Positions 1,764 through 17,207 of a stretch of 64,000 nt of DNA are shown in pieces. The stretch lies in NCBI RefSeq assembly GCF_016745425.1, contig NZ_JAERVK010000001.1, forward strand, positions 1 to 64,000, given 5' to 3'. The first letter of the stretch is position 1; each line of letters opens with the position of its first letter. A model generated the notes under the pieces. The model saw nothing but the letters and a program-made list of their open reading frames with translations. It was not told the DNA's origin and made no database searches. Made by a program: the position numbers and the translations under genes. This DNA is from Candidatus Methylomicrobium oryzae (GTDB taxonomy: Bacteria; Pseudomonadota; Gammaproteobacteria; Methylococcales; Methylomonadaceae).

Positions 1764-1985
1764 ATGAGACGAATTATCAAGCGCAAAGACGCCGCCGCAA
1801 TGGTCGGCGTATCCATCAAAACCATCCCGCTACTCATCAAAGAAAACGGCTTTCCTAAGCCGGTGTCGGTCGGAAAGTCCAATGGATGGATCGATACCGA
1901 AATCCAGGAATGGATTGAAAAGAAAATTTCCGAACGGGATGCGGCGCTGGCCGGAGGTGCGTCATTGGTCGGAGGTGCAGCATGA
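1764..1985 (+). CDS. AlpA-family phage/island transcriptional regulator
   Basis: The 73-residue protein has an AlpA winged helix-turn-helix: KDAAAMVGVSIKTIPLLI as the recognition region, then FPKPVSVGKSNGWIDTEIQEWI. AlpA proteins of prophage CP4-57 and P4-like elements activate excision or late genes. GAGAGGG lies just upstream of the ATG. The stop overlaps the next start (ATGA at 1982-1985), so the rha-like gene is translationally coupled. A second AlpA gene at 11385 is similar, including the ERDAA segment near the C terminus. Confidence 0.85.
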   Translation: MRRIIKRKDAAAMVGVSIKTIPLLIKENGFPKPVSVGKSNGWIDTEIQEWIEKKISERDAALAGGASLVGGAA

Positions 1986-2633
1986 GTACCACGGCAAAAA
2001 CGCAATTGCGGTTGGTCGAGGTCCACGGCGAAAAGCTGACGACGACCAGTCTCGTCATTGCCGAACAATTCGGCCGATCCCATAAAAACGTACTCAGAAG
2101 TCTGGATAAATTAAAAGATCGGCTCAAGTTTGTGCCGATCTCTTATTCGGACAAATACGGCCGCGAACAAAAAATGTATCAGCTCGACGAGCGGTCGTTC
2201 CTGATTGCAATGCCGTTTATTGGTGGAAAAAAAATCCGTGGAAGGGCAAATTGCGCTGGTCGATGAGTTTATCAGGCTCAAGACAATCCTCAATGAGCCG
2301 GGACGTAAAGCGGAGCTTGCCGCCAAGCGCCATACCGGTTCCGAGATGACCGATATGCTCCGGTTTGTCCGCGAGACAAACGGTAAGGAAACCACAAAAA
2401 ATCATTACCTGAACGAGCATCAGTTTTGCAATCGGGCGCTGACCGGAAAGTGGGAGGAGATCAACGAAGCCGAATTGGATGTTTATGACCTTCGTCTTCT
2501 ATCCGCGATCCGCAAGCACAATACCTTGCTTATCACCCGGTATCTCAAACAGGCCGAGAGGAAAAAACTGCTGGACGCGTTTGTCGCCGACTACCGGGCA
2601 AAGCCCCCGCGGCTGAAGTTGGTAGGGGCTTAA
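1982..2633 (+). pseudogene. Rha-family phage regulatory protein, frameshifted at an A8 run
   Basis: The first frame gives a Rha-type N terminus (VIAEQFGRSHKNVLRSLDKL, then REQKMYQLDERSFLIAMPFIGGKK). At the eight adenines at 2227-2234 it leaves frame and stops at 2266. Removing one A joins it to the frame that continues SVEGQIALVDEFIRLK and runs to 2633, giving about 216 residues. Rha proteins are phage regulators, named from phi-80, that affect lysogeny. The 3' part, ending in KPPRLKLVGA, is unassigned. The break may be a real mutation, a sequencing error in the homopolymer, or corrected by transcriptional slippage. Confidence 0.75.
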
Positions 2634-2665
2634 TCAGGCCATTTTTTAATCACGGAATCAAGCAC

Positions 2666-4255
2666 ATGAACCACTTTATCACCTGGGACAGCACCGCGCA
2701 GCCCCAACGCATCACCCTTCAACAAATCCTCTACCAGTGCCGGCGCGCCGACGGCGATAACGCACTGCTGCTCGATGCGGTCTGTATGGCCGACATCCTG
2801 GAAGAGGCCGATGAGATCCTGGTCTTCGACGCGCTGGTGTCGACCTATGCCGGGCTGGAACGCAAGATGCTGGCACTGCAGGCCGTGATGACCCGGGCCG
2901 GCGAGACGGTCAAGCCGATGGCTTTGCAGATCAGCGAACCGTTCAAACAGCAAGACGTGGCGCAGGTCGCGGCAATCTTCGAGCTCTCGGACGGGCAAAC
3001 CGTCTCGATCTTCTTCCACAATCCGGACGTGACGCCGCAGAAGATGGCGCCCGGCGATGCGCTGGTCAGCTGGAAATGGCTGTTGAATAAGCGCGACGTC
3101 ACGATCCTGGTGGCGCCGGAACGCGGGAAGGATTTGAATGTGCGCGAAGTGGCAACCCGGATCATGAAGCTGGCGGCCAAGAACAGTGCGGCCTTTCAGC
3201 GGGCCAACGCCAAGCGGGCCGAGAACCTGCAGGCAATCGAGTCGCTGAAAACCGAAATCGCGGCCCTCGAGCAGGAACTGGCCGACGCCCAGCATGAACT
3301 GGAAGTCGCCAAGCAGGCGTATGAGGACCGTTCGCTGAATCCTCACCCTCAGGAACAGGACGCCTACCATGCCCGTCTCGATGCCGCGCAGCAGCGCTTT
3401 ATCGCGGTCAAACAGGCCCTGGCCGCGATGATGAACTGGAGCCAAGGTGCGGACGGCGTCTCAATGGTCAATCTGCGAACCGGGCATGCGGTTGTCTATC
3501 AGCCAACCGCGGCGAATGCGCTGCGCGAGGCGGTATGGACGCTGTACCAGCTGGCGGGCAAGGGGGATTGGAAGCCGATCAAGCCATTCATCGATAAATC
3601 CAGCGAGCAAGGCTATGCCGAAACCCCGGAGGCCTTCGCCAATGGTATCAATGCGGCAGCCAACGCCGAGCCTGAACCGAAAGTCGCGAAGCGTGAAGCC
3701 GAAGCCCGGCCGGCGAGTGCGCCAGAAACGCCGGTTACCGATCCGGTCGACGAGCAGATGAACCAGCGCTATCAGGCCGTCAAAGCCGAGCTGCAAAAGC
3801 TTGGATGGCAAATAAGCCCCGATGGCGTTTCGCTGCAAAGTCCGGACATCGGTTGGGCGCTGGTGCCGCGTAAAACCTCGCTGAGCAGTCGCTGGCGGAT
3901 TTACCGACTCATGGCCAAGGGAACCTGGAAGTTCGTGAAAGAGCTGGCGGACAAAACGGATAAGAAAGGCTATGTCCAGACCCCGGCGCAATTTGCCAAG
4001 GCCTTACACCACGCCGCGCTCGATGCCGCGGTCAGCGCCGAACAGAAAGCGAAAAGCCCGGCCCGGTCCCGTTTTGCCGCCGAACTCGACGCGCTGAAAG
4101 CCGAAACCGATATAGTTGAGTTCGACCGCAAGCTGGACGAGATCGTCCTTAGAATCGAATTGGCCGGCTTAATGGACGAATTGGACGCCGAACTGAATGC
4201 CGCCGCGGATCAGCTCACGGCGTTGCTAGCCAAGGCCGAGAAGCGGGTCAAGTAG
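2666..4255 (+). CDS. DarA-N-like mobile-element protein with a duplicated C-terminal module
   Basis: The 529-residue protein appears in phage- and plasmid-like elements. Residues about 1-175 resemble the 'defence against restriction A' N-terminal domain of polyvalent proteins (FDALVSTYAGLERKML, SWKWLLNKRDVTILV). Residues 176-230 form a charged coiled coil. Two related modules of about 85 residues follow (243-332 and 368-452); each begins with QR(F/Y)xAVK and ends with a (D/T)WK..K...DK....GY..TP..FA pattern. A helical tail is at 465-529. In phage P1, DarA is packaged in the head and protects injected DNA from type I restriction. Whether this protein does so is inferred. No strong ribosome-binding site is visible. 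Confidence 0.6.
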   Translation: MNHFITWDSTAQPQRITLQQILYQCRRADGDNALLLDAVCMADILEEADEILVFDALVSTYAGLERKMLALQAVMTRAGETVKPMALQISEPFKQQDVAQVAAIFELSDGQTVSIFFHNPDVTPQKMAPGDALVSWKWLLNKRDVTILVAPERGKDLNVREVATRIMKLAAKNSAAFQRANAKRAENLQAIESLKTEIAALEQELADAQHELEVAKQAYEDRSLNPHPQEQDAYHARLDAAQQRFIAVKQALAAMMNWSQGADGVSMVNLRTGHAVVYQPTAANALREAVWTLYQLAGKGDWKPIKPFIDKSSEQGYAETPEAFANGINAAANAEPEPKVAKREAEARPASAPETPVTDPVDEQMNQRYQAVKAELQKLGWQISPDGVSLQSPDIGWALVPRKTSLSSRWRIYRLMAKGTWKFVKELADKTDKKGYVQTPAQFAKALHHAALDAAVSAEQKAKSPARSRFAAELDALKAETDIVEFDRKLDEIVLRIELAGLMDELDAELNAAADQLTALLAKAEKRVK

Positions 4256-6965: not shown

Positions 6966-7808
6966 TTAGGAATTAGCGGCTGCAAAAGCCAAAATATTAT
7001 CTTTTTCAGCATACGGAAGCACGGTCGCTCCGGCGTCTTGCAAACCCTCTACTATTTCCCGGTAGGCATTGCCTTTCGGGCCATCTTCTAGCGGACCTTG
7101 TACGGCGAACAAAACTTTGTCCGGCAATTTTTTTCGCTTGTGTAGCTGATTGATCCGCAATAGCCATTGGCCGCCGTGCTCAATGATCTTGGTAGCCTGG
7201 TTATGGCCGAGGTGCAGTGGCTTAATAGCCTTTACCGCATGTTCCTCGCGCTGTTCGACAAAGGGGAAGGTTACGTGGTACTCGTCATTGCCAAGTTCCG
7301 CGCGTTCGAAGCGTTCGGCAATACCGGCCGTGTAAAGCCATTTGCGCATACCCCGCTCCAGCACGGTTTCCTGGTATTCCCGAGTCACAAACGTGCGCTC
7401 CACATAATGGCCGTAAAGCTCGGCCAGCGTTTCCTTCAGGTCATCGGCTAAAATGGCCCGCGGCTCGCTGAATTTGATGATCGTTTCGCGTGGGCGGATG
7501 ATCTCGGCGAACAATCCCTTGGCAAAATCGACGTCGTTGACTTTAAGCCGCTTATCAAAGCCATGCCGCCGCAAAACTCCAGTGGTGCGATCCAATTCAT
7601 CATGCAAGTTGCGCATCGTCGAGCGAAAAACCTTCGCTTCAAGCTGTTCGAAAAAATGCGTGACACGCGCATGCCGTTGCGCCATCAATTTAAACGCAAA
7701 AAAGCGCTGCTCCGGGGCCATCATAACTATGCCCACATTGGCAAATTCGCCGGTTTCCACGAAGGGCATGAAGCGAACGATGGAATAAAGACAAGCAGTT
7801 TTTTTCAT
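6966..7808 (-). CDS. DUF3037 domain protein
   Basis: The start at 7808 has GGAG upstream and overlaps the stop of the HipA-like gene (ATGA, 7805-7808), so the two are translationally coupled. The 280-residue protein opens with YSIVRFMPFVETGEFANVG and MMAPEQRFFAFKL, the signature of DUF3037. It continues with charged helices and ends with a segment (PDKVLFAVQGPLEDGPKGNA) ahead of AGATVLPYAEKDNILAFA. DUF3037 genes are commonly found beside HipA-like kinase genes, as here. The biochemical role is unknown; a toxin-antitoxin or defence role is only suggested by context. Confidence 0.8.
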   Translation of the reverse strand: MKKTACLYSIVRFMPFVETGEFANVGIVMMAPEQRFFAFKLMAQRHARVTHFFEQLEAKVFRSTMRNLHDELDRTTGVLRRHGFDKRLKVNDVDFAKGLFAEIIRPRETIIKFSEPRAILADDLKETLAELYGHYVERTFVTREYQETVLERGMRKWLYTAGIAERFERAELGNDEYHVTFPFVEQREEHAVKAIKPLHLGHNQATKIIEHGGQWLLRINQLHKRKKLPDKVLFAVQGPLEDGPKGNAYREIVEGLQDAGATVLPYAEKDNILAFAAANS

Positions 7809-8539
7809 TTTAAACTCCAGAACGTGTCGGTCTGGTAGCGCAACAAACATTGGTGGGCAGACTGAATATCGAAGTCAGTCTGAACGGTCTGTTCGGCGTC
7901 CACGAACCACCATTCAGGTGGGATAGTATTGCAGATTGTTGCCCAGTCTGACAATGCGCTCAAAAAGCGGTCGACATAATGTTGCTGCTCCACCCAATCG
8001 CCGATCAAAGCGCTCCAATGCGAGCGGAAGACGTGCGATTCAACAAAACCCAGTGCCGAAAACCCTGAGTCGAAAGCTTGATTGTGGTCGATGACGACCA
8101 GCGCCTCATTGCCTGTGTCCCAGAATAAATTGGGATTGCCGGCGGATTCACCTAGGCTACGGTCGGCATTGCGCACCCACCAATCGAAGGCCAACACATC
8201 CCGTTGGATGTCTTCGGGCACCTGATCGATTAGCGATACCGATAACTCCACGACCGGCATTTTGCGTGAGCCGAAGGCCTTGCCGACGCCCAGTTCGTTC
8301 ATATCGTCGCGCATTGCAACCGCAAGCAGTGCTTCGGGAACATCGACAATTTCAAAAGGCGCGATCGGCAATCCCAGCCGCAGGCCAAGCTGGCCGCCAA
8401 TCCACTCGCAAATCAGGCTGCGCCGGCCAGCACCCCGGCCTTTGACAAAATACACCTGATCGTCTTCAGCGCGGCAAATGAAAGGTTGGGTAACCCCTTG
8501 CTGCGCGCGGCCCATGATCTCCACGATTTCCAGGCTCAT
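7805..8539 (-). CDS. HipA-like kinase family protein
   Basis: The 244-residue protein has the short HipA-like kinase layout: a VYFVKGRG strand with a probable ATP-binding Lys33, LICEWIGGQLGLRLGLPIAP, a catalytic-loop-like FDWWVRNADRS (Asn124, Asp126), NPNLFWD, and a metal-binding-like VVIDHNQAF (Asp151). HipA phosphorylates glutamyl-tRNA synthetase in E. coli. The short stand-alone forms next to DUF3037 have no known target. It overlaps both neighbours by ATGA junctions (8536-8539 and 7805-7808), so the three genes form one coupled operon. All the kinase motifs look present, so it may be active. Confidence 0.8.
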   Translation of the reverse strand: MSLEIVEIMGRAQQGVTQPFICRAEDDQVYFVKGRGAGRRSLICEWIGGQLGLRLGLPIAPFEIVDVPEALLAVAMRDDMNELGVGKAFGSRKMPVVELSVSLIDQVPEDIQRDVLAFDWWVRNADRSLGESAGNPNLFWDTGNEALVVIDHNQAFDSGFSALGFVESHVFRSHWSALIGDWVEQQHYVDRFLSALSDWATICNTIPPEWWFVDAEQTVQTDFDIQSAHQCLLRYQTDTFWSLK

Positions 8540-8970
8540 TGGTTTATTGGATATTTATCGTTGGATTTCGCCTCCATAAGCCAATCCGGGGAGACGGTAT
8601 CGACCACCGGCAAAGCGTCGGAATTTATCTCGCCAATCAGTTGGCCGGAAAAAGCGCGTTGCAGAATGGCCTGGCGCAGGCGCTCGGCTCGCTTGAGGTT
8701 GGCGGCGGCGTATTCGGCAATTTGTTCTTCAACGCTAATGAATTTGCGGCCGTGCTGTTCAGCTTTGGCTTCAATCACATCGCCCGGTTTGTCGCCGACA
8801 AACAGAATGTAATTGGCGGGACCACTGTCGGTTTGGTATTCCCGAACGGTCTGACCTTCGCCAATGTGGAAGTTAATCTGGTTTTTGTTCTGAATGACCC
8901 AACCCGACTGCAATAACAGCTTGTCGATTTGGTCGCGGGCTATTTGTTCGGGGTTTTGGTTCAGGGTCAT
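8536..8970 (-). CDS. Chimeric type I restriction fragment: HsdR N terminus joined to HsdS C terminus
   Basis: From the ATG at 8970 the protein (144 residues) begins NPEQIARDQIDKLLLQSGW and continues through VREYQTDSGPANYILFV and GDVIEAKAE. This is the N-terminal nuclease region of HsdR-type restriction subunits, with the D...E-A-K catalytic pattern. After about residue 90 it changes to a C-terminal HsdS helix (ANLKRAERLRQAILQRAFSG). Specificity domains, helicase and methyltransferase are absent. The simplest reading is an internal deletion that fused hsdR to hsdS, leaving an open frame coupled to the HipA-like gene. An in-frame extension reaches 9063. No clear ribosome-binding site is visible. 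Confidence 0.65.
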   Translation of the reverse strand: MTLNQNPEQIARDQIDKLLLQSGWVIQNKNQINFHIGEGQTVREYQTDSGPANYILFVGDKPGDVIEAKAEQHGRKFISVEEQIAEYAAANLKRAERLRQAILQRAFSGQLIGEINSDALPVVDTVSPDWLMEAKSNDKYPINQ

Positions 8971-9100: not shown

Positions 9101-9130
9101 TTGACAACGGCTCGCCGACGGCGTTACTCT
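9101..9130 (+). promoter_or_regulatory. Promoter of the structured leader
   Basis: TTGACA (9101-9106) is followed after 18 bases by TACTCT (9125-9130). Transcription would start near 9137 and run through the palindromic leader toward the gene at 9391. Confidence 0.55.
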
Positions 9131-9190
9131 GTTACCGCGGTCCACATTGACCGCCGGGATTAGCAGCCCGCTTTAACCACAAAGATGCCG

Positions 9191-9214
9191 GCGCATCTGA
9201 TGCGCTATTTTTTT
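9191..9214 (+). terminator. Early terminator or attenuator in the leader
   Basis: GCGCA (9191-9195) and TGCGC (9201-9205) form a short hairpin followed by TA and seven T residues (to 9214). Together with the promoter at 9101-9130 it would give a short RNA of about 80 nucleotides, so downstream genes may depend on read-through. Confidence 0.5.
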
Positions 9215-9260
9215 GCCTATCGATTTGACGGTACGGGAACCCTGTATCGTTTTGCATGAT

Positions 9261-9363
9261 GGTGGGCTGGCTTGGGCCGCCTTCGGGCGGGCCGCTTCTT
9301 TGTGGGCGGTACTGCTAACCTGAGTCAGTCCACCGCCCAAATAAATTAGCAGTTATGCGGTGG
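9261..9363 (+). ncRNA. Structured leader RNA resembling phage C4 antisense RNA
   Basis: The segment folds into a GC-rich hairpin with a TTCG loop (9274-9293), then a hairpin whose 7-bp stem is GGGCGGT (9304-9310) with ACCGCCC (9332-9338) and whose loop carries ACTGCTAA (9311-9318). ACTGCTAA is complementary to TTAGCAGT (9346-9353) just before the next gene and, over seven bases, to TTAGCAG (9160-9166). CCACCGC (9330-9336) can alternatively pair with GCGGTGG (9357-9363). This mix of loop-borne antisense elements and matching targets is how the C4 RNA of phages P1 and P4 works. Membership of that family is from memory and should be tested with a covariance model. Confidence 0.45.
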
Positions 9364-9390
9364 TCTCTTCATCACACAAAGGAGACTCTC

Positions 9391-10248
9391 ATGTCCGAAA
9401 ACACCCGCGATACCCTTTCGCCCAGCGCCCAAGTTACCGCTGATCCCTTCCTAACTGATTCCGCTTACCGGCACGAGGCCAGACAAGCCCTCAACGCTTA
9501 TCTCGAGGCCTGCTTCGACGCGCTGCAACAGGCCGGCGTTACGCCGCCCGAATGGCCTACCCTCGACGATCAAACCGTGTCCGGCCTGGCCGCTCAGATG
9601 CTCTGGCTTAACCGGTGGATCATCGACTTTGATCCGTCCACGATGAAGCCGCAGTTATCGCCCGCGCCCCTCAGTGCGTTCATTCTGACCAAGGACCAAA
9701 TCCAAAAGAATATCGAGGAGATCCTGCCCGGTTACCGGCTGATCGAGCAGCCGCTGTATGAGCAACTGACCGCGAAACCCAAAAACCACATTTTGCAGGT
9801 CGATTTCTCGCACCGGATTTCGTACCATGCGCATGGCGGTACCCTCGAAAACGAACTGATCGAGACGTTGAGCACCCTCCGGCGCGACCTGACCGGGTTA
9901 TTCGGGACGTTGCGCCATCTGCTGAAAACGTCGGAAGCCGACAAGCTCTACCACAGCGTGACGGACGGCATCCTCCAGGAGCTGGAGCTTTTCGACATCC
10001 TGTTAGACGTGGACCATACTCAGCCGCTCACCGCGGAAAGGATCGATCAGTTAAATACGTCGTTCGAAGACTTGTTTTCGATGCACTGGATGCTGCTGGA
10101 GCAACTGATCGATAGCGACAAGAATCAATTCGGATCGGGCTTGGTCGAGATCGCCGACAAGAAGTTAAGCGACATCCGGGCCTTGCTCGATGCCTACAGC
10201 CAACAAACTCAATCCGAAGAGGCGGTCGACGAAGCAGGCGCCGCATGA
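9391..10248 (+). CDS. Conserved-looking accessory protein, unknown function
   Basis: AAAGGAG stands upstream of the chosen ATG; an in-frame ATG at 9355 lies inside the structured leader. The 285-residue acidic protein is mostly helical (YRHEARQALNAYLEACFDAL, SGLAAQMLWLNRWIIDF, LSTLRRDLTGLFGTLRHLLK, LSDIRALLDAY) with no signal peptide or membrane segment. I recognise no domain. It is the first gene of a tight cluster of five and follows the C4-like RNA, so it is probably an element-borne gene under phage-like RNA control. Its stop overlaps the next start (ATGA, 10245-10248). Confidence 0.6.
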   Translation: MSENTRDTLSPSAQVTADPFLTDSAYRHEARQALNAYLEACFDALQQAGVTPPEWPTLDDQTVSGLAAQMLWLNRWIIDFDPSTMKPQLSPAPLSAFILTKDQIQKNIEEILPGYRLIEQPLYEQLTAKPKNHILQVDFSHRISYHAHGGTLENELIETLSTLRRDLTGLFGTLRHLLKTSEADKLYHSVTDGILQELELFDILLDVDHTQPLTAERIDQLNTSFEDLFSMHWMLLEQLIDSDKNQFGSGLVEIADKKLSDIRALLDAYSQQTQSEEAVDEAGAA

Positions 10249-10410: not shown

Positions 10411-10584
10411 ATGAACGCAAAACCTCGAAAACCGGCACAACCCCGGTTCGATCTTTTCAAGGTCGTGGACGGCGTCAAAACGCTGGTTTGCCGCGACCTC
10501 AACAGCGACCAAGCCTTGGCGCTGCTTCCCGAGCTGCAAGGCCTGTTCGTGATTAAATTCAACGGCTTCAACAAATTAAGGTGA
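10411..10584 (+). CDS. Small accessory protein, unknown function
   Basis: A 57-residue frame starts 1 base after the previous stop, with AACAGGAGCGG about 6 bases upstream as a ribosome-binding site. It encodes a basic N terminus (MNAKPRKPAQPRFDLF), then KVVDGVKTLVCRDLNSDQAL, ending FVIKFNGFNKLR. It is tightly packed with its neighbours and protein-like in composition. No family is recognised. Confidence 0.5.
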   Translation: MNAKPRKPAQPRFDLFKVVDGVKTLVCRDLNSDQALALLPELQGLFVIKFNGFNKLR

Positions 10585-10590
10585 AATCCA

Positions 10591-10875
10591 ATGAGCAACC
10601 CAAACAATGTTACTCCCGCAAACCCCTTCTCGCACCGTTTCGACACGACGAAGGCCCACGATCCCCAGCATGTCCAGACGGCTTTCCACCTGATCGCCAG
10701 CCATGCGCAGGGTGTTTTGAACTCGCTGTGCTTTCAGTTCGAAGGCGATGGCCGGATGAGCGATGAAACCATTCAAGGCAGCCTGGATGCCATTTCCTTC
10801 ATGATCGACGATATGAAGGCTATCCTCAATGCCCACGTCGATGCGGCTAAGGCTGGCAAGGACGGTGCGCAATGA
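10591..10875 (+). CDS. Small helical accessory protein, unknown function
   Basis: The 94-residue protein starts 6 bases after the previous stop and overlaps the next gene by ATGA (10872-10875). It is acidic and helical: HVQTAFHLIASHAQGVLNSL, then SDETIQGSLDAISFMIDDMK and a KAILNAHVDAAKAGKD tail. It somewhat resembles the next protein in layout (two long helices, no catalytic motif). It is probably a soluble accessory protein of the element, with unknown role. Confidence 0.55.
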   Translation: MSNPNNVTPANPFSHRFDTTKAHDPQHVQTAFHLIASHAQGVLNSLCFQFEGDGRMSDETIQGSLDAISFMIDDMKAILNAHVDAAKAGKDGAQ

Positions 10876-11216
10876 GTAGGGGAGCTATATCCACAGACAA
10901 CGTCTTGCTCAATCTCTGGGAAGCGGCGGCCGACACGCTGACGCCCGAGCAGCTTCAATGGTTCGGCAGCCTGGACGATTTCGCTCAGATGGAAGCCCGG
11001 AATCTCAGCACCACGCTTTCCACTTTAGCGAATCTGGCCGGCAATGTCGATGAGGTCGACCGGCCCGGCCGTGAGGAATTCAGCAAAATCCTTTACAGCA
11101 CGTCTTATCAGATCGAAACGATTGCCAGCCTGATCGATATCGCGTCCAATGCGAAGGATCGGCTGCGGGATCCTGAAGGTTATGAGGCGATCCGAAAGGC
11201 AAGATCGGAAGCGTGA
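10872..11216 (+). CDS. Small helical accessory protein, unknown function
   Basis: The 114-residue protein is the last of the coupled cluster that begins at 9391. Its helices include NVLLNLWEAAADTLTPEQLQ, STTLSTLANLAGNVDEV and YQIETIASLIDIASNAKDRL, with no signal peptide or membrane segment. An intrinsic terminator follows about 50 bases downstream. No family is recognised. Its position suggests a role shared with the preceding four genes. Confidence 0.55.
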   Translation: MSRGAISTDNVLLNLWEAAADTLTPEQLQWFGSLDDFAQMEARNLSTTLSTLANLAGNVDEVDRPGREEFSKILYSTSYQIETIASLIDIASNAKDRLRDPEGYEAIRKARSEA

Positions 11217-11384: not shown

Positions 11385-11591
11385 ATGTCAGAGTTTTTGA
11401 AGTTAAAGGCGGTTTCCGCCGACATATCAATCGGTGGTTCAACGATCCGCAAGATGGTAGCAAAGGGGGAATTTCCCAAGCCGGTTACTATCGGCGGCTG
11501 TAATCGTTGGGTGGCCAGTGAGATCGCTGCATGGAAAGAGCAGCAGATTGCCGAACGCGACGCGGCCAATGGTCAGGGCGGTGCAGAATGA
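11385..11591 (+). CDS. Second AlpA-family regulator
   Basis: The start at 11385 has GGAG at 11375-11378. The 68-residue protein shows the AlpA helix-turn-helix (LKAVSADISIGGSTIRKMVA) followed by FPKPVTIGGCNRWVASEIAA and a KEQQIAERDAAN tail like that of the AlpA gene at 1764. AlpA proteins control excision and gene expression of prophages and islands. The stop overlaps the next start (ATGA, 11588-11591), the same arrangement as in the first module, which suggests duplication or two superimposed elements. Confidence 0.85.
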   Translation: MSEFLKLKAVSADISIGGSTIRKMVAKGEFPKPVTIGGCNRWVASEIAAWKEQQIAERDAANGQGGAE

Positions 11592-12937: not shown

Positions 12938-14143
12938 TTACCCCAGGTGGATTTTCGGCAGGATATCCAAAATCATACTTATCGAATTTTCGACCTCTTG
13001 GGTAGAAGTTTCCCCATCCATATTTTCTGTAACGGCAGAATTGGTTCTATCAGTACTATCACTGAGTTCGATATCGCTGGTTTCCTTATTTTGTTTGCGA
13101 TCCTCTTCCGTTAAATAGTTGTTCAGTTGCCCCAGTAATTCGTCATGCCGCGGTGGAACGCCGTCAAAGCCTCCAAACTTGCAATCCTTGATAAAAGGGC
13201 GCATAACGAATCGATGTAGTGAGGACTTGAAATATTCATCACAAAAATCACGAACCATTTCATGTGTAACAGGATTAAGGCTTAAAAGTTTATCTTCGTG
13301 TTCATCCAATCGAGCAGTTGTACCCGCATCTAACCAAAAGCACGGATAGGCATTACCACCAGTCACTCCTTTCAAAGATACGCGTCCATCAAAATATATT
13401 TTTGGCTTACTAACTCTTCCTTGATATGTTGATTTTATATCGAGGGCAGCATATGCCACTAAGTATGCTAGATCTACGGAAATGATAAACTTCCGCGGTG
13501 TAGCTAGAGTCGCAATTCTAAATCCTGTATCGATAGAGGGGCCGATGTAATCGACAATTCCTTGTGGTTCGCCCCCATTATGTATCTTTTCATATAGATT
13601 AAATGCAGAGATAACGGGGTCATCATTGGTATCACTGCTATTTTCTAATTTATTACCGAAATTGTTTTCAAAGCAAACAAAGGCGTTATTTATTGGAAAC
13701 CCGGCAATCCATGCAGAGCCTTTAATATCTAAAACAGCCTCGTCTTCTCGCTTTTGAAAATTCGCACGTTGTTCATGTATGGCTTCAATCCATGCCCGGA
13801 TCAACGCAAGCGCTTCTCTTGGGTCTGTTAATCGTGCGCTATATAAAATTTCATCGCCTCGCCCCTTCCAGAATTTTGGCTCTGCTTTGACGACGGAAGA
13901 CCAATTTTCCGGCAGATCTTGTTTAATTCGTGCCCATTTCCGATGAAAATCCGCAGAAAACTCGCGGAAGAAGCCTGATATAACATAAACCCAAGATTCT
14001 ACAGGGGCTTTGCCGAGTAAGGAATTATCGCTAGCGCTTCCACTGCGCCGCGTAAGCTGTTTGAATGCTGTCGAACCAACAATATCGGCGCTTAGAAATA
14101 GGCGAAGCTCTGGCTCAAACCCTGTAAAATCGCTTTTAGCCAT
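12938..14143 (-). CDS. Class III nucleotidyl cyclase, probable Pycsar-type cyclase (PycC-like)
   Basis: The 401-residue soluble protein starts its cyclase domain at LRLFLSADIVGSTAFK, where Asp20 fits the first metal ligand of class III cyclases. KFWKGRGDEILY supplies the second (Asp97), and GPSIDTGFRIATLA fits the late catalytic strand and helix. The C-terminal 100 residues are acidic and unassigned. Pycsar cyclases make cCMP or cUMP on phage infection. The product cannot be told from sequence here. The assignment rests on the neighbouring effector-like membrane gene (14746-15303). It follows the metallopeptidase gene by 68 bases and has only a weak ribosome-binding site. The region is AT-rich compared with the core, suggesting transfer. 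Confidence 0.72.
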   Translation of the reverse strand: MAKSDFTGFEPELRLFLSADIVGSTAFKQLTRRSGSASDNSLLGKAPVESWVYVISGFFREFSADFHRKWARIKQDLPENWSSVVKAEPKFWKGRGDEILYSARLTDPREALALIRAWIEAIHEQRANFQKREDEAVLDIKGSAWIAGFPINNAFVCFENNFGNKLENSSDTNDDPVISAFNLYEKIHNGGEPQGIVDYIGPSIDTGFRIATLATPRKFIISVDLAYLVAYAALDIKSTYQGRVSKPKIYFDGRVSLKGVTGGNAYPCFWLDAGTTARLDEHEDKLLSLNPVTHEMVRDFCDEYFKSSLHRFVMRPFIKDCKFGGFDGVPPRHDELLGQLNNYLTEEDRKQNKETSDIELSDSTDRTNSAVTENMDGETSTQEVENSISMILDILPKIHLG

Positions 14144-14211
14144 TGTTTGTAGCAGATTGTTTAGTTGCCATATTTCAACGGAAATTAACCGATTACTATG
14201 ACTGATTGTCT

Positions 14212-14730
14212 TTAAGGAAGGCCAAGGTGCCGGGCCATTACTGCCGCTGCTTGTTGAGAAACTTGGAAGTTTTCGGACAGCAAGAGCAGGTCACCATTCA
14301 CTGTATTATAGTAATCTCTGAACTCTTCCTCCGGCATTAAAAAGGATGCAGCAAACCAATTGGCTTCAGTTTCTGCCCTACTCTGCCCATATCGAGCCGC
14401 TCTCATAGGAGTTCGTTCTTTGGATAACAAATAATGAAGAAAGTAATGTCCTAATTCGTGGCAAATTGTAAAGCGATCCCGCAGTCGGCTGGTATGATTG
14501 GCTAATATGATTCTAAACTCAGTAGGGTTTTCTATAACTACTGAACCCGAATCAGACTCTTTCAGTTCCCATAAGTCATCATAAATAATGCAGCCACCGA
14601 GTGCTTGTACAATGGGTAATAAGTCGTCTCCCGGGTTGTAATTAAAATGCTTAATTACAGCTTTCGAAAATTTGTTGATTTCAGAACGCGGTAGGTAGCA
14701 TGGTTCTGGTTCACGATATTGTTCCGACAT
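14212..14730 (-). CDS. ImmA/IrrE-type zinc metallopeptidase in the Pycsar-like locus
   Basis: The 172-residue protein contains HELGH (91-95) with Glu122 in AETEANWFAASFLMPEEE as the likely third zinc ligand, the ImmA/IrrE (peptidase family M78) pattern. N-terminal strands (DDLLPIVQALGGCIIYDDLW) fit the fold. ImmA of ICEBs1 cleaves a phage-type repressor and IrrE controls DdrO in Deinococcus. No XRE repressor is seen beside it here. GAGGGG precedes the ATG. It lies 15 bases after the membrane effector-like gene and 68 bases before the cyclase gene, on the same strand. Its substrate might be a locus component, but this is inference. Confidence 0.88.
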   Translation of the reverse strand: MSEQYREPEPCYLPRSEINKFSKAVIKHFNYNPGDDLLPIVQALGGCIIYDDLWELKESDSGSVVIENPTEFRIILANHTSRLRDRFTICHELGHYFLHYLLSKERTPMRAARYGQSRAETEANWFAASFLMPEEEFRDYYNTVNGDLLLLSENFQVSQQAAAVMARHLGLP

Positions 14731-14745
14731 TTAAAATCCCCTCTT

Positions 14746-15303
14746 TTAAGTTATTATTTTAATTCCTGCAATTAGGGATGCTAAGCTAAGAATTGTTCCG
14801 GCTGATATGAAAAACGCCGAATATCGTAAGGCAATAAATTTCTGTTTAACAATTTTGGACAAATCGTAAGAATGAGCGACGATCTGGGATCTAATTTCAT
14901 CCTCATTCATACTGATAATCTTATTAACAAAATCGGTTTTATTGGAATGGCCATCTGCAATATCTACCCATGACACTACGTTCCCATTATGCCCTTTACC
15001 ATATTTTGGCCATACACACCACATAGATGAAAGAATAGTAAGTCCCAAAAACAAAATTGCAAGTTCGCAAAAAGCCTGTCCCATGCTTAATTGGCAAATA
15101 TGTATTTGAAACACATCGAAGGCATGTTGATTCGAGAGATAACCAATCTCCAGCGCACTACTGGCCAAGAAAAATGAAGCTTTTCTGTCAGCCAAACCGA
15201 TCATCTCACGTATGTACCCATGCTGATTTGATATAAAATCTTTGGAAACGTTCGGCTTGCTCGCGTCATCAATAGGTTTTACGTTAGTCGATAAATCAGT
15301 CAT
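14746..15303 (-). CDS. Pycsar effector-like membrane protein (PycTM/DUF5706-like)
   Basis: The 185-residue protein has the N-terminal HGYIREMIGLADRKASFFL motif, typical of Pycsar transmembrane effectors (a helix with (A/L)ADxKAS leading into the first membrane segment). Hydrophobic segments lie at about 41-58, 77-100 (AFCELAILFLGLTILSSMW) and 160-184 (YSAFFISAGTILSLASLIAG). A cytoplasmic region between them contains DEIRSQIVAHSYDLSKIVKQ. PycTM effectors bind the cyclic pyrimidine signal and damage the inner membrane. Placement before the peptidase and cyclase genes on the same strand supports this role. The ribosome-binding site is weak. Confidence 0.72.
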   Translation of the reverse strand: MTDLSTNVKPIDDASKPNVSKDFISNQHGYIREMIGLADRKASFFLASSALEIGYLSNQHAFDVFQIHICQLSMGQAFCELAILFLGLTILSSMWCVWPKYGKGHNGNVVSWVDIADGHSNKTDFVNKIISMNEDEIRSQIVAHSYDLSKIVKQKFIALRYSAFFISAGTILSLASLIAGIKIIT

Positions 15304-15919: not shown

Positions 15920-16089
15920 CAATACGGAACCATATCCTTGATGCAAAAAAGTTGCGGTCGAAACTCGGGATTTGGCAGTCGGCCGAATTGGTAAATTCAG
16001 GAGTTAATTGAATGTCGTATTTGTCGCCAATTATTGCGGTGTCTTTTGGAGTAGTGCGACAAAATTGCGACATTTTTTCGACAGGCAAT

Positions 16090-16121
16090 AAAAAAGGACT
16101 TGGTAAAAAACCTAAGTCCTT
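16090..16121 (-). terminator. Terminator downstream of tRNA-Leu
   Basis: AAGGACTT (16094-16101) pairs with AAGTCCTT (16114-16121). On the minus strand the hairpin is followed by a T-run (16095-16090). It lies directly after the tRNA 3' end. Confidence 0.7.
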
Positions 16122-16129
16122 GAATTTAT

Positions 16130-16216
16130 TGGTGCCTCGGGCCGGAGTCGAACCGGCACGGTGTTTCCACCGAGGGATTTTAAGTCCCTTGCGTCTACCA
16201 ATTTCGCCACCGAGGC
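16130..16216 (-). tRNA. tRNA-Leu (anticodon TAA)
   Basis: The minus strand gives a class II tRNA of 87 nucleotides. Acceptor GCCTCGG pairs with CCGAGGC, the anticodon loop is CTTAAAA (anticodon TAA), there is a long variable arm, the T-arm contains GGTTCGACTCC, and CCA is encoded. It reads UUA/UUG codons. Its 3' end faces the accessory region, the usual geometry for island integration, but no second copy of the tRNA 3' end was found in the window to the left. Confidence 0.95.
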
Positions 16217-17003: not shown

Positions 17004-17207
17004 TCCGGCCCGCTGAAGTTTGAATATATTCGTTTTGGCTTGAACTATAAACCAGGAAACAAGCCGGTTCCGAATGTATTGACCTGAAAATAAGTTAAAA
17101 CTTCATATTACCGAATCTATAATGCCTTAAATTTAACGGTATTGGGGGGGGAAGCGAGAACGGTTCTGAGGACCTGGCAGCGTTCCCTCCGGAGCATCCG
17201 GCTGTGA

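Follow-up and report, generated by a model that had tools for sequence, protein, structure and literature searches.

The window, i.e., the whole stretch of 64,000 nucleotides that was analysed, carries at 9101-9390 a leader that precedes five consecutive open reading frames (g1 to g5) and an AlpA-family gene, all on the forward strand. The leader is made up of the following features:

9101-9130 (+): promoter-like pair, with -35 TTGACA at 9101-9106, an 18-base spacer and -10 TACTCT at 9125-9130
9124-9174 (+): upstream target stretch resembling c4-a1b1 (RF03163, 37 bits), whose second hairpin carries a1 in its loop
9160-9166 (+): a1, complementary to a' of the C4 RNA
9177-9184 (+): b1, CCACAAAG, complementary to b', the hairpin-2 loop of C4
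9190-9214 (+): intrinsic terminator between promoter and C4, a stem followed by a T run
9255-9340 (+): C4 antisense RNA (RF01695, 75 bits), with a fold that covaries in 34 homologues
9296-9305 (+): b', TTCTTTGTGG, the loop region of hairpin 2 in C4, with matches in own leaders
9311-9318 (+): a', ACTGCTAA, linker before the 3' stem of C4, matching its own leader
9330-9363 (+): competing hairpin, in which the 3' strand of the C4 stem (9330-9336) pairs with 9357-9363 and a2 lies in the loop
9346-9353 (+): a2, complementary to a'
9375-9384 (+): b2, complementary to b' and overlapping the Shine-Dalgarno sequence (CACAAAGGAG)

The segments on which the initial annotation of this locus was built are found at their coordinates, namely ACTGCTAA at 9311-9318, TTAGCAGT at 9346-9353, ATTAGCAG at 9159-9166 (containing TTAGCAG, 9160-9166), CCACCGC at 9330-9336, GCGGTGG at 9357-9363 and TTGACA at 9101-9106. 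The promoter that had been placed at 9101-9130 holds in part. Its -35 hexamer is perfect, but the -10 hexamer is weak (3 of 6 consensus bases), and the pair was not reported by a strict promoter scan of the leader because that scan requires 4. With a looser rule, 32 of the 34 homologous leaders have some promoter-like pair in the interval 80-230 bases ahead of C4, compared to 5.0 expected from mononucleotide shuffles with picks counted anywhere in that interval. The early terminator proposed for the leader was recovered as a seven-pair stem (9190-9206), one A and seven T (9208-9214); the fold of its region, 9176-9215, has a z of -2.50, and a run of at least five T within 90 bases before C4 occurs in all 34 homologous leaders. 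The stretch 9138-9175 folds at -11.6 kcal/mol (z -1.53), with 18 of 200 shuffles equally good. An outer stem around the terminator, recurrent by eye, was rejected for its lack of covariation (3585 of 10000 permutations as good). By its position in the sequence, b2 is located at the ribosome-binding site of g1, where it holds AAAGGAG ahead of the ATG at 9391.

The initial annotation had read this arrangement as a C4-like antisense leader, and had named a covariance-model search and covariation in homologous leaders as ways to check it; the results of both argue for that reading. In a search with all Rfam families, 9255-9340 (+) matches the C4 antisense RNA family over the full model (1-87) at 75 bits, well over the curated cut-off of 45, with an E of 8.1e-13 over the window. 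The lists of Weinberg et al. (2010; PMC2864571) include c4 antisense RNA from Proteobacteria and phages. The stretch 9124-9174 reaches 37 bits with c4-a1b1 (RF03163) at a permissive threshold, under the curated cut-off of 46.7, and is not counted as a member of that family, though the a1 and b1 sites are present. The segment 9258-9341 folds at -47.1 kcal/mol (z -3.97). For comparison, 34 C4 loci selected by score were aligned, six from two genomes of the genus and 28 of the top-scoring ones from a sample of 201 genomes of the bacterial family. The RNAalifold consensus of this alignment has 22 pairs, comprising the closing stem and hairpin 1, with hairpin 2 outside the consensus. Pairing is kept in 97.6% of cells, both sides have changed in 19 of the 22 pairs, and none of 500 shuffles reaches this level; slid control structures are paired in at most 44.6% of cells, a comparison that favours the consensus because it was derived from the same alignment. 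Covariation is thus present inside the C4 fold, and it is also found between C4 and its targets.

Antisense pairing sites and a competing hairpin

The relation between C4 and its targets was assessed by swapping, i.e., by comparing exact complementarity of seven or more bases between each C4 and its own leader with that in 1122 combinations of a C4 with a foreign leader, relatedness among the leaders being ignored. The linker a' finds a 7-base match upstream in 32 of 34 own leaders (71/1122 swapped) and downstream in 27 (38/1122), which bears out the earlier claim that ACTGCTAA is complementary to both 9160-9166 and 9346-9353. The loop of hairpin 2, b', behaves in the same way, with 7-base matches upstream in 24/34 own leaders vs 88/1122 swapped ones, and at the Shine-Dalgarno region in 30/34 vs 52/1122. 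All four sites are matched at six or more bases in 29 of the 34 own leaders and in 5 of the 1122 swapped combinations; in the other five leaders (L013, L015, L019, L021, and L027) at least one site fails at six bases. RNAduplex energies agree, with 0 of 10000 permutations as good for each of the pairs a'-a1, a'-a2, b'-b1, and b'-b2. The sites differ widely among loci, the 34 leaders having 23 different words of 7 bases at the a'/a1 site. For P1/P7, a study describes a b' loop that partly occludes ribosome-binding sites, and an a' that gives specificity via upstream binding (PMC5320573). On complementarity, the second antisense segment b' is the hairpin-2 loop at 9296-9305, predicted to pair with 9375-9384 and 9177-9184, because its matches recur in own leaders and because PMC5320573 places the b' of P1/P7 at ribosome-binding sites.

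The same data bear on the simplest alternative, a plain attenuator whose hairpins act purely in cis, with no trans-acting antisense RNA. The terminator does precede C4, and within one transcript the 3' strand of C4 is able to pair with 9357-9363, as such an attenuator would have it. It leaves unexplained why two segments of C4 are each complementary to one upstream and one downstream site and covary with them, and why the C4 fold covaries as a unit. The layout is moreover common to P1, P4 and N15, and the literature describes an antisense RNA in P1/P7 and in P4 (PMC12197685; PMC5320573; PMC4825925). We therefore consider a purely cis-acting attenuator highly improbable and retain the C4-type antisense leader.

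Specificity appears to be set leader by leader. Each of the three C4 RNAs of the window's genome matches solely its own leader at all four sites, and since there is no cross-match at all four sites among them, they should act separately. The leader of an integrated element in a second genome of the genus is 84.8% identical to that of the window over 316 columns. Compared with the leader of the window, this same-genus leader has a changed a', correspondingly changed a1 and a2, and identical b', b1, and b2, a natural change of specificity.

The initial annotation had further proposed that CCACCGC pairs with GCGGTGG in a structure exclusive of the others. The two segments are present and can pair, CCACCGC being the 3' strand of the C4 stem and GCGGTGG lying between a2 and the Shine-Dalgarno sequence, but they do not form the second antisense segment, and b' had been misassigned in this respect. 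At seven exact bases, this type of pairing is found downstream in 10/34 own leaders vs 92/1122 swapped ones and upstream in 0/34 vs 70/1122, and it was rejected as an antisense segment on these counts. Its energy (RNAduplex) is lower in own leaders than in permuted ones (mean -15.1 vs -11.9 kcal/mol), with 0 of 10000 permutations as good. The pairing can be understood as a separate competing cis hairpin that would rival the C4 stem, with a2 in its loop.

It is conceivable, and we propose it tentatively while leaning toward doubt, that C4 leaders hold a built-in switch beyond antisense pairing and that the leader is a portable immunity cassette. If so, the 3' strand of the C4 stem would pair either with its own 5' strand, giving C4, or with the segment between a2 and the Shine-Dalgarno sequence, and antisense production and target display would be mutually exclusive on one molecule. 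Cassette copies with exchangeable a' words, and with differing first genes behind one type of leader, could then coexist in one genome.

Downstream genes and the integrated element

The genes behind C4 are arranged as follows:

9391-10248 (+): g1, first gene after C4, an open frame of 285 aa with its ATG 50 nt past C4
10245-10409 (+): g2, 54 aa, 54% identical over 50 aa to a gene that follows the C4 of the same-genus element (L038)
10411-10584 (+): g3, 57 aa, 63% identical over 49 aa to the first gene after C4 of locus L010
10591-10875 (+): g4, 94 aa, with a C4 at most 1500 bases upstream in 15 of 18 relatives' loci
10872-11216 (+): g5, 114 aa, predicted all-helical (AlphaFold2 pLDDT 87), with 14 of the 19 relatives' loci having a C4 no more than 1500 bases upstream
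11385-11591 (+): AlpA-family gene, 68 aa (PF05930, 29.6 bits, cut-off 21)

The first gene, g1, was placed in no family by Pfam, PHROGs, NCBIfam or PADLOC under the limits applied. It has no relative among the 201 family genomes apart from its own, and none in the phages, plasmids, genome contigs or viral contigs searched; its structure model, made without an alignment, is poor (pLDDT 48). As no search returned a relative, none of these results links the function of g1 to immunity. The small genes further down are better connected. Besides g5 itself there are 27 relatives of g5, 19 of them with scannable loci, and 14 of these 19 have a C4 over the cut-off on the same strand within 1500 bases upstream, some loci being shorter than that. 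By the same scan, 15 of 18 loci with g4 relatives have a C4; three of the 18 share one genome and one is from the window's genome. Relatives of g4 were absent from the genome contigs and relatives of g5 from the viral contigs; the alignment members of g5 and g4 gave nothing better than E 0.016 with Pfam, and a search with the helical model of g5 returned nothing at E 0.001 or better from either the PDB or the viral libraries. The recurrence of these families behind C4 makes it likely that small families related to g4 and g5 act in the choice of such elements between dormancy and activation. In one locus with a g5 relative but no C4 (L060), an int-alpA RNA (RF02996, 49.7 bits) is located upstream of it at 27-93. 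In a further C4 locus (L004, 8011-9847), behind the C4 of G000:C1, a gene resembles g4 over its first ~25 residues and then diverges; this locus lies near a tRNA-Thr, like the same-genus element.

First genes were defined by an ATG 38-60 nt past C4 opening a frame of at least 25 aa. Such an ATG is found in 33 of the 34 loci, at 42-53 nt; the start in L021 is doubtful, as no ribosome-binding site is recognisable there, and in L013 the expected place lacks an open frame of at least 25 aa. Among the 33 first genes, Pfam matches at E 0.01 or better comprise Bro-N (4), KilA-N (3), ORF6N (2), Rha (2), P22_AR_N (1), and AntA (1), where one protein may match two families; by their names, these are families of antirepressors and phage regulators. 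The first gene of the same-genus element encodes the same residues as g1 in its initial seven codons and then a different protein, which matches Peptidase_S24 at 20.6 bits, under the cut-off of 23.3. The suggestion of the initial annotation that five genes behind the leader are regulated by it gains from these comparisons, as control of g1-g5 by C4 is supported by their position and by the repeated occurrence of two of the gene families (g4 and g5) after other C4 RNAs, and may be taken as a prediction for the whole cluster.

The leader and its genes are located in an integrated element, one end of which is marked within the window:

16083-16186 (no strand): attachment repeat covering the 3' portion of tRNA-Leu(taa), 91.3% identical over 104 columns to 8373-8472 of contig C13

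The tRNA-Leu(taa) gene is at 16130-16216 (-). Inside the window the tRNA region is repeated by matches of at most 15 bases, and the other attachment site is on C13, where the repeat at 8373-8472 adjoins a Phage_integrase gene (C13:7017-8111, 123.8 bits, 364 aa). The tRNA region has a counterpart in the same-genus genome, 97.5% identical over 162 columns, where the element is absent; one flank of this empty site corresponds to window position 17120 onwards and the other, ~430 bases off, to C13:12763 onwards, and the ~4 kb stretch adjoining the site on C13 has no match at the same-genus site either. Together, the attachment repeats, the integrase gene and the empty same-genus tRNA site indicate an element that covers the left end of the window and continues on C13, with its middle absent from the assembly. 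The same-genus leader itself sits in an element of ~17.6 kb at a tRNA-Thr, with an exact repeat of 49 bases and an adjoining integrase gene.

The part of the element in the window also carries DarA_N and Rha genes. These lie on the forward strand at 1764-4255, together with a second AlpA gene that is 92.5% identical over 67 aa to the AlpA of the same-genus element. Adjoining the C4 leader on the opposite strand, 6966-8970 (-) encodes a HipA_2-like kinase, a DUF3037 protein, and a third gene with weak matches to restriction subunits; the kinase and the DUF3037 gene match the PADLOC candidate system PDC-M66. Beside tRNA-Leu, 12938-15303 (-) is likely a defence cluster, with matches to PycTM (a Pycsar effector) at 14746-15303 and to Peptidase_M78 and capP/RmrA-type proteins at 14212-14730. 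The same cluster holds a 401-aa gene (12938-14143, -) with no PADLOC match, and that it encodes a cyclase is a guess.

The state of this element raises the question of whether the leader is a relic, i.e., an RNA that is still recognisable in a dead element and no longer regulates. That g1 has no relatives and that the element is split over contigs would fit a relic, whereas all four target sites and the terminator are intact, as are the start codon and the reading frames, and the attachment repeats and the gene for the 364-aa integrase are still present. A relic is on this evidence unlikely, and a leader that still functions is preferred.

C4 RNAs are frequent in the bacterial family of this genome. 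Among the 201 sampled genomes of the family, searched under stricter filters, 97 have a C4 match at E 0.001 or better, and in 94 it is over the cut-off; the window's genome has three C4 RNAs, as does the one other genus genome examined. Three genomes (G109, G059, and G125) have two equal-scoring C4 RNAs each, perhaps one element present twice, which strict immunity would disfavour. Because the window's genome holds two matches to the AMO/PmoA family, the bacterial family is presumably one of methane oxidisers; in the open-licence literature we found no paper that joins C4 antisense RNA with Methylomonas or methanotrophs. The frequency of C4 could also point to a regulator adopted by the host, whose C4 now targets host mRNAs, a role that PMC5320573 proposes for Acinetobacter baumannii. 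The leader of this C4 is still in place and is matched by both a' and b', and the locus is inside an integrated element. For the window we thus give adoption by the host very little credence and keep to a C4 that acts on its own leader.

Proposed regulation and known C4 systems

Very probably, the locus is a leader with a C4-type antisense RNA and belongs to an integrated phage-like element, in which g1-g5 would be shut by termination and a translation block. The RNA family, the covarying fold, the four covarying target sites, the start codon behind these sites, and both ends of the element are computed features. We infer the expression and processing of the RNA, both modes of repression, the extent of the operon and the roles of its genes, and a course of events can be proposed as follows. 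Transcription would start at the promoter-like pair at 9101-9130 and encounter the terminator at 9190-9214, so that C4 would be made only in transcripts that pass it. RNase P processes C4 in P1/P7, and by analogy the C4 of the window may be excised as a short RNA. The mature C4 would then pair in trans via a' and b' with a1 and b1, just ahead of the terminator. On nascent transcripts such pairing may lead to termination and so curb the synthesis of C4 itself, comparable to P4, for which termination of transcription by the CI RNA is described in PMC4825925. Pairing with a2 and b2, over the Shine-Dalgarno sequence, would in addition block translation of g1; in PMC12197685, c4 RNA is described to act around the ribosome-binding site of the ant mRNA and to block its translation. 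In the integrated state g1-g5, and perhaps the AlpA gene behind them, would be silenced, and in the absence of C4 they would be expressed.

This kind of RNA is known; its abundance in the bacterial family and the unnamed genes behind C4 are less so. A bacterium with PmoA/AMO-family genes is now seen to carry a textbook phage immunity RNA in an integrated element, and C4 RNAs are common in its family, often several per genome and with differing pairing words. Dozens of natural leaders make specificity codes and heteroimmunity open to testing, and the comparison points to small unnamed gene families, those of the g4 and g5 relatives, as recurrent neighbours downstream of C4.

With the same C4 model P1 scores 68.8, P4 74.9, and N15 78.8 bits. 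In all three, within the 200 bases searched, the four sites have at least seven bases, and the stretch that separates C4 from the upstream sites holds a T run. The IsrK RNA model of Gifsy-1 (RF01394) matches 9137-9212 at 33.6 bits, well under its cut-off of 50. The C4 of P1/P7, which controls icd-ant, resembles that of the window in belonging to the C4 family, in having two sites each for a' and b', and in the T run before C4; PMC5320573 also places its b' at the ribosome-binding site, as in the window. Unlike in P1/P7, the first gene of the window has no recognised family, and unlike in the window, the competing pairing of the 3' strand of C4 in P1 has five exact bases at most.

N15 is a linear plasmid prophage. 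It shares with the window the C4 family and the four sites, and its competing pairing has nine exact bases; the element of the window is integrated at a tRNA-Leu, unlike N15. The CI RNA of P4, the immunity factor of a satellite phage, likewise belongs to the C4 family and has four sites and a competing pairing of nine exact bases. As in the window, an AlpA-related gene (ORF88) follows further down on the same strand in P4, and the AlpA-family protein of 11385-11591 is 41% identical over 56 aa to the stretch of P4 that carries the annotation ORF88 product. P4-type satellites are characterised by an integrase and a tRNA site, a C4-type RNA, an AlpA-type gene, an alpha-type primase, and the absence of virion genes. 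In one other locus (L005, 2203-11875, with the C4 of G000:C62), the order of genes resembles the P4 type, with an integrase-like gene, a small AlpA-like gene, C4, small genes, and an 806-aa primase/helicase-like protein, the gene names being given by reading alone. For the window, the comparison covered the window proteins and three proteins of the other end of the element, the middle being absent from the assembly; the alpha primase that P4 has is not among the window proteins scanned, and the P4-type features found are the integrase, the tRNA site, the C4 RNA, and the AlpA gene.
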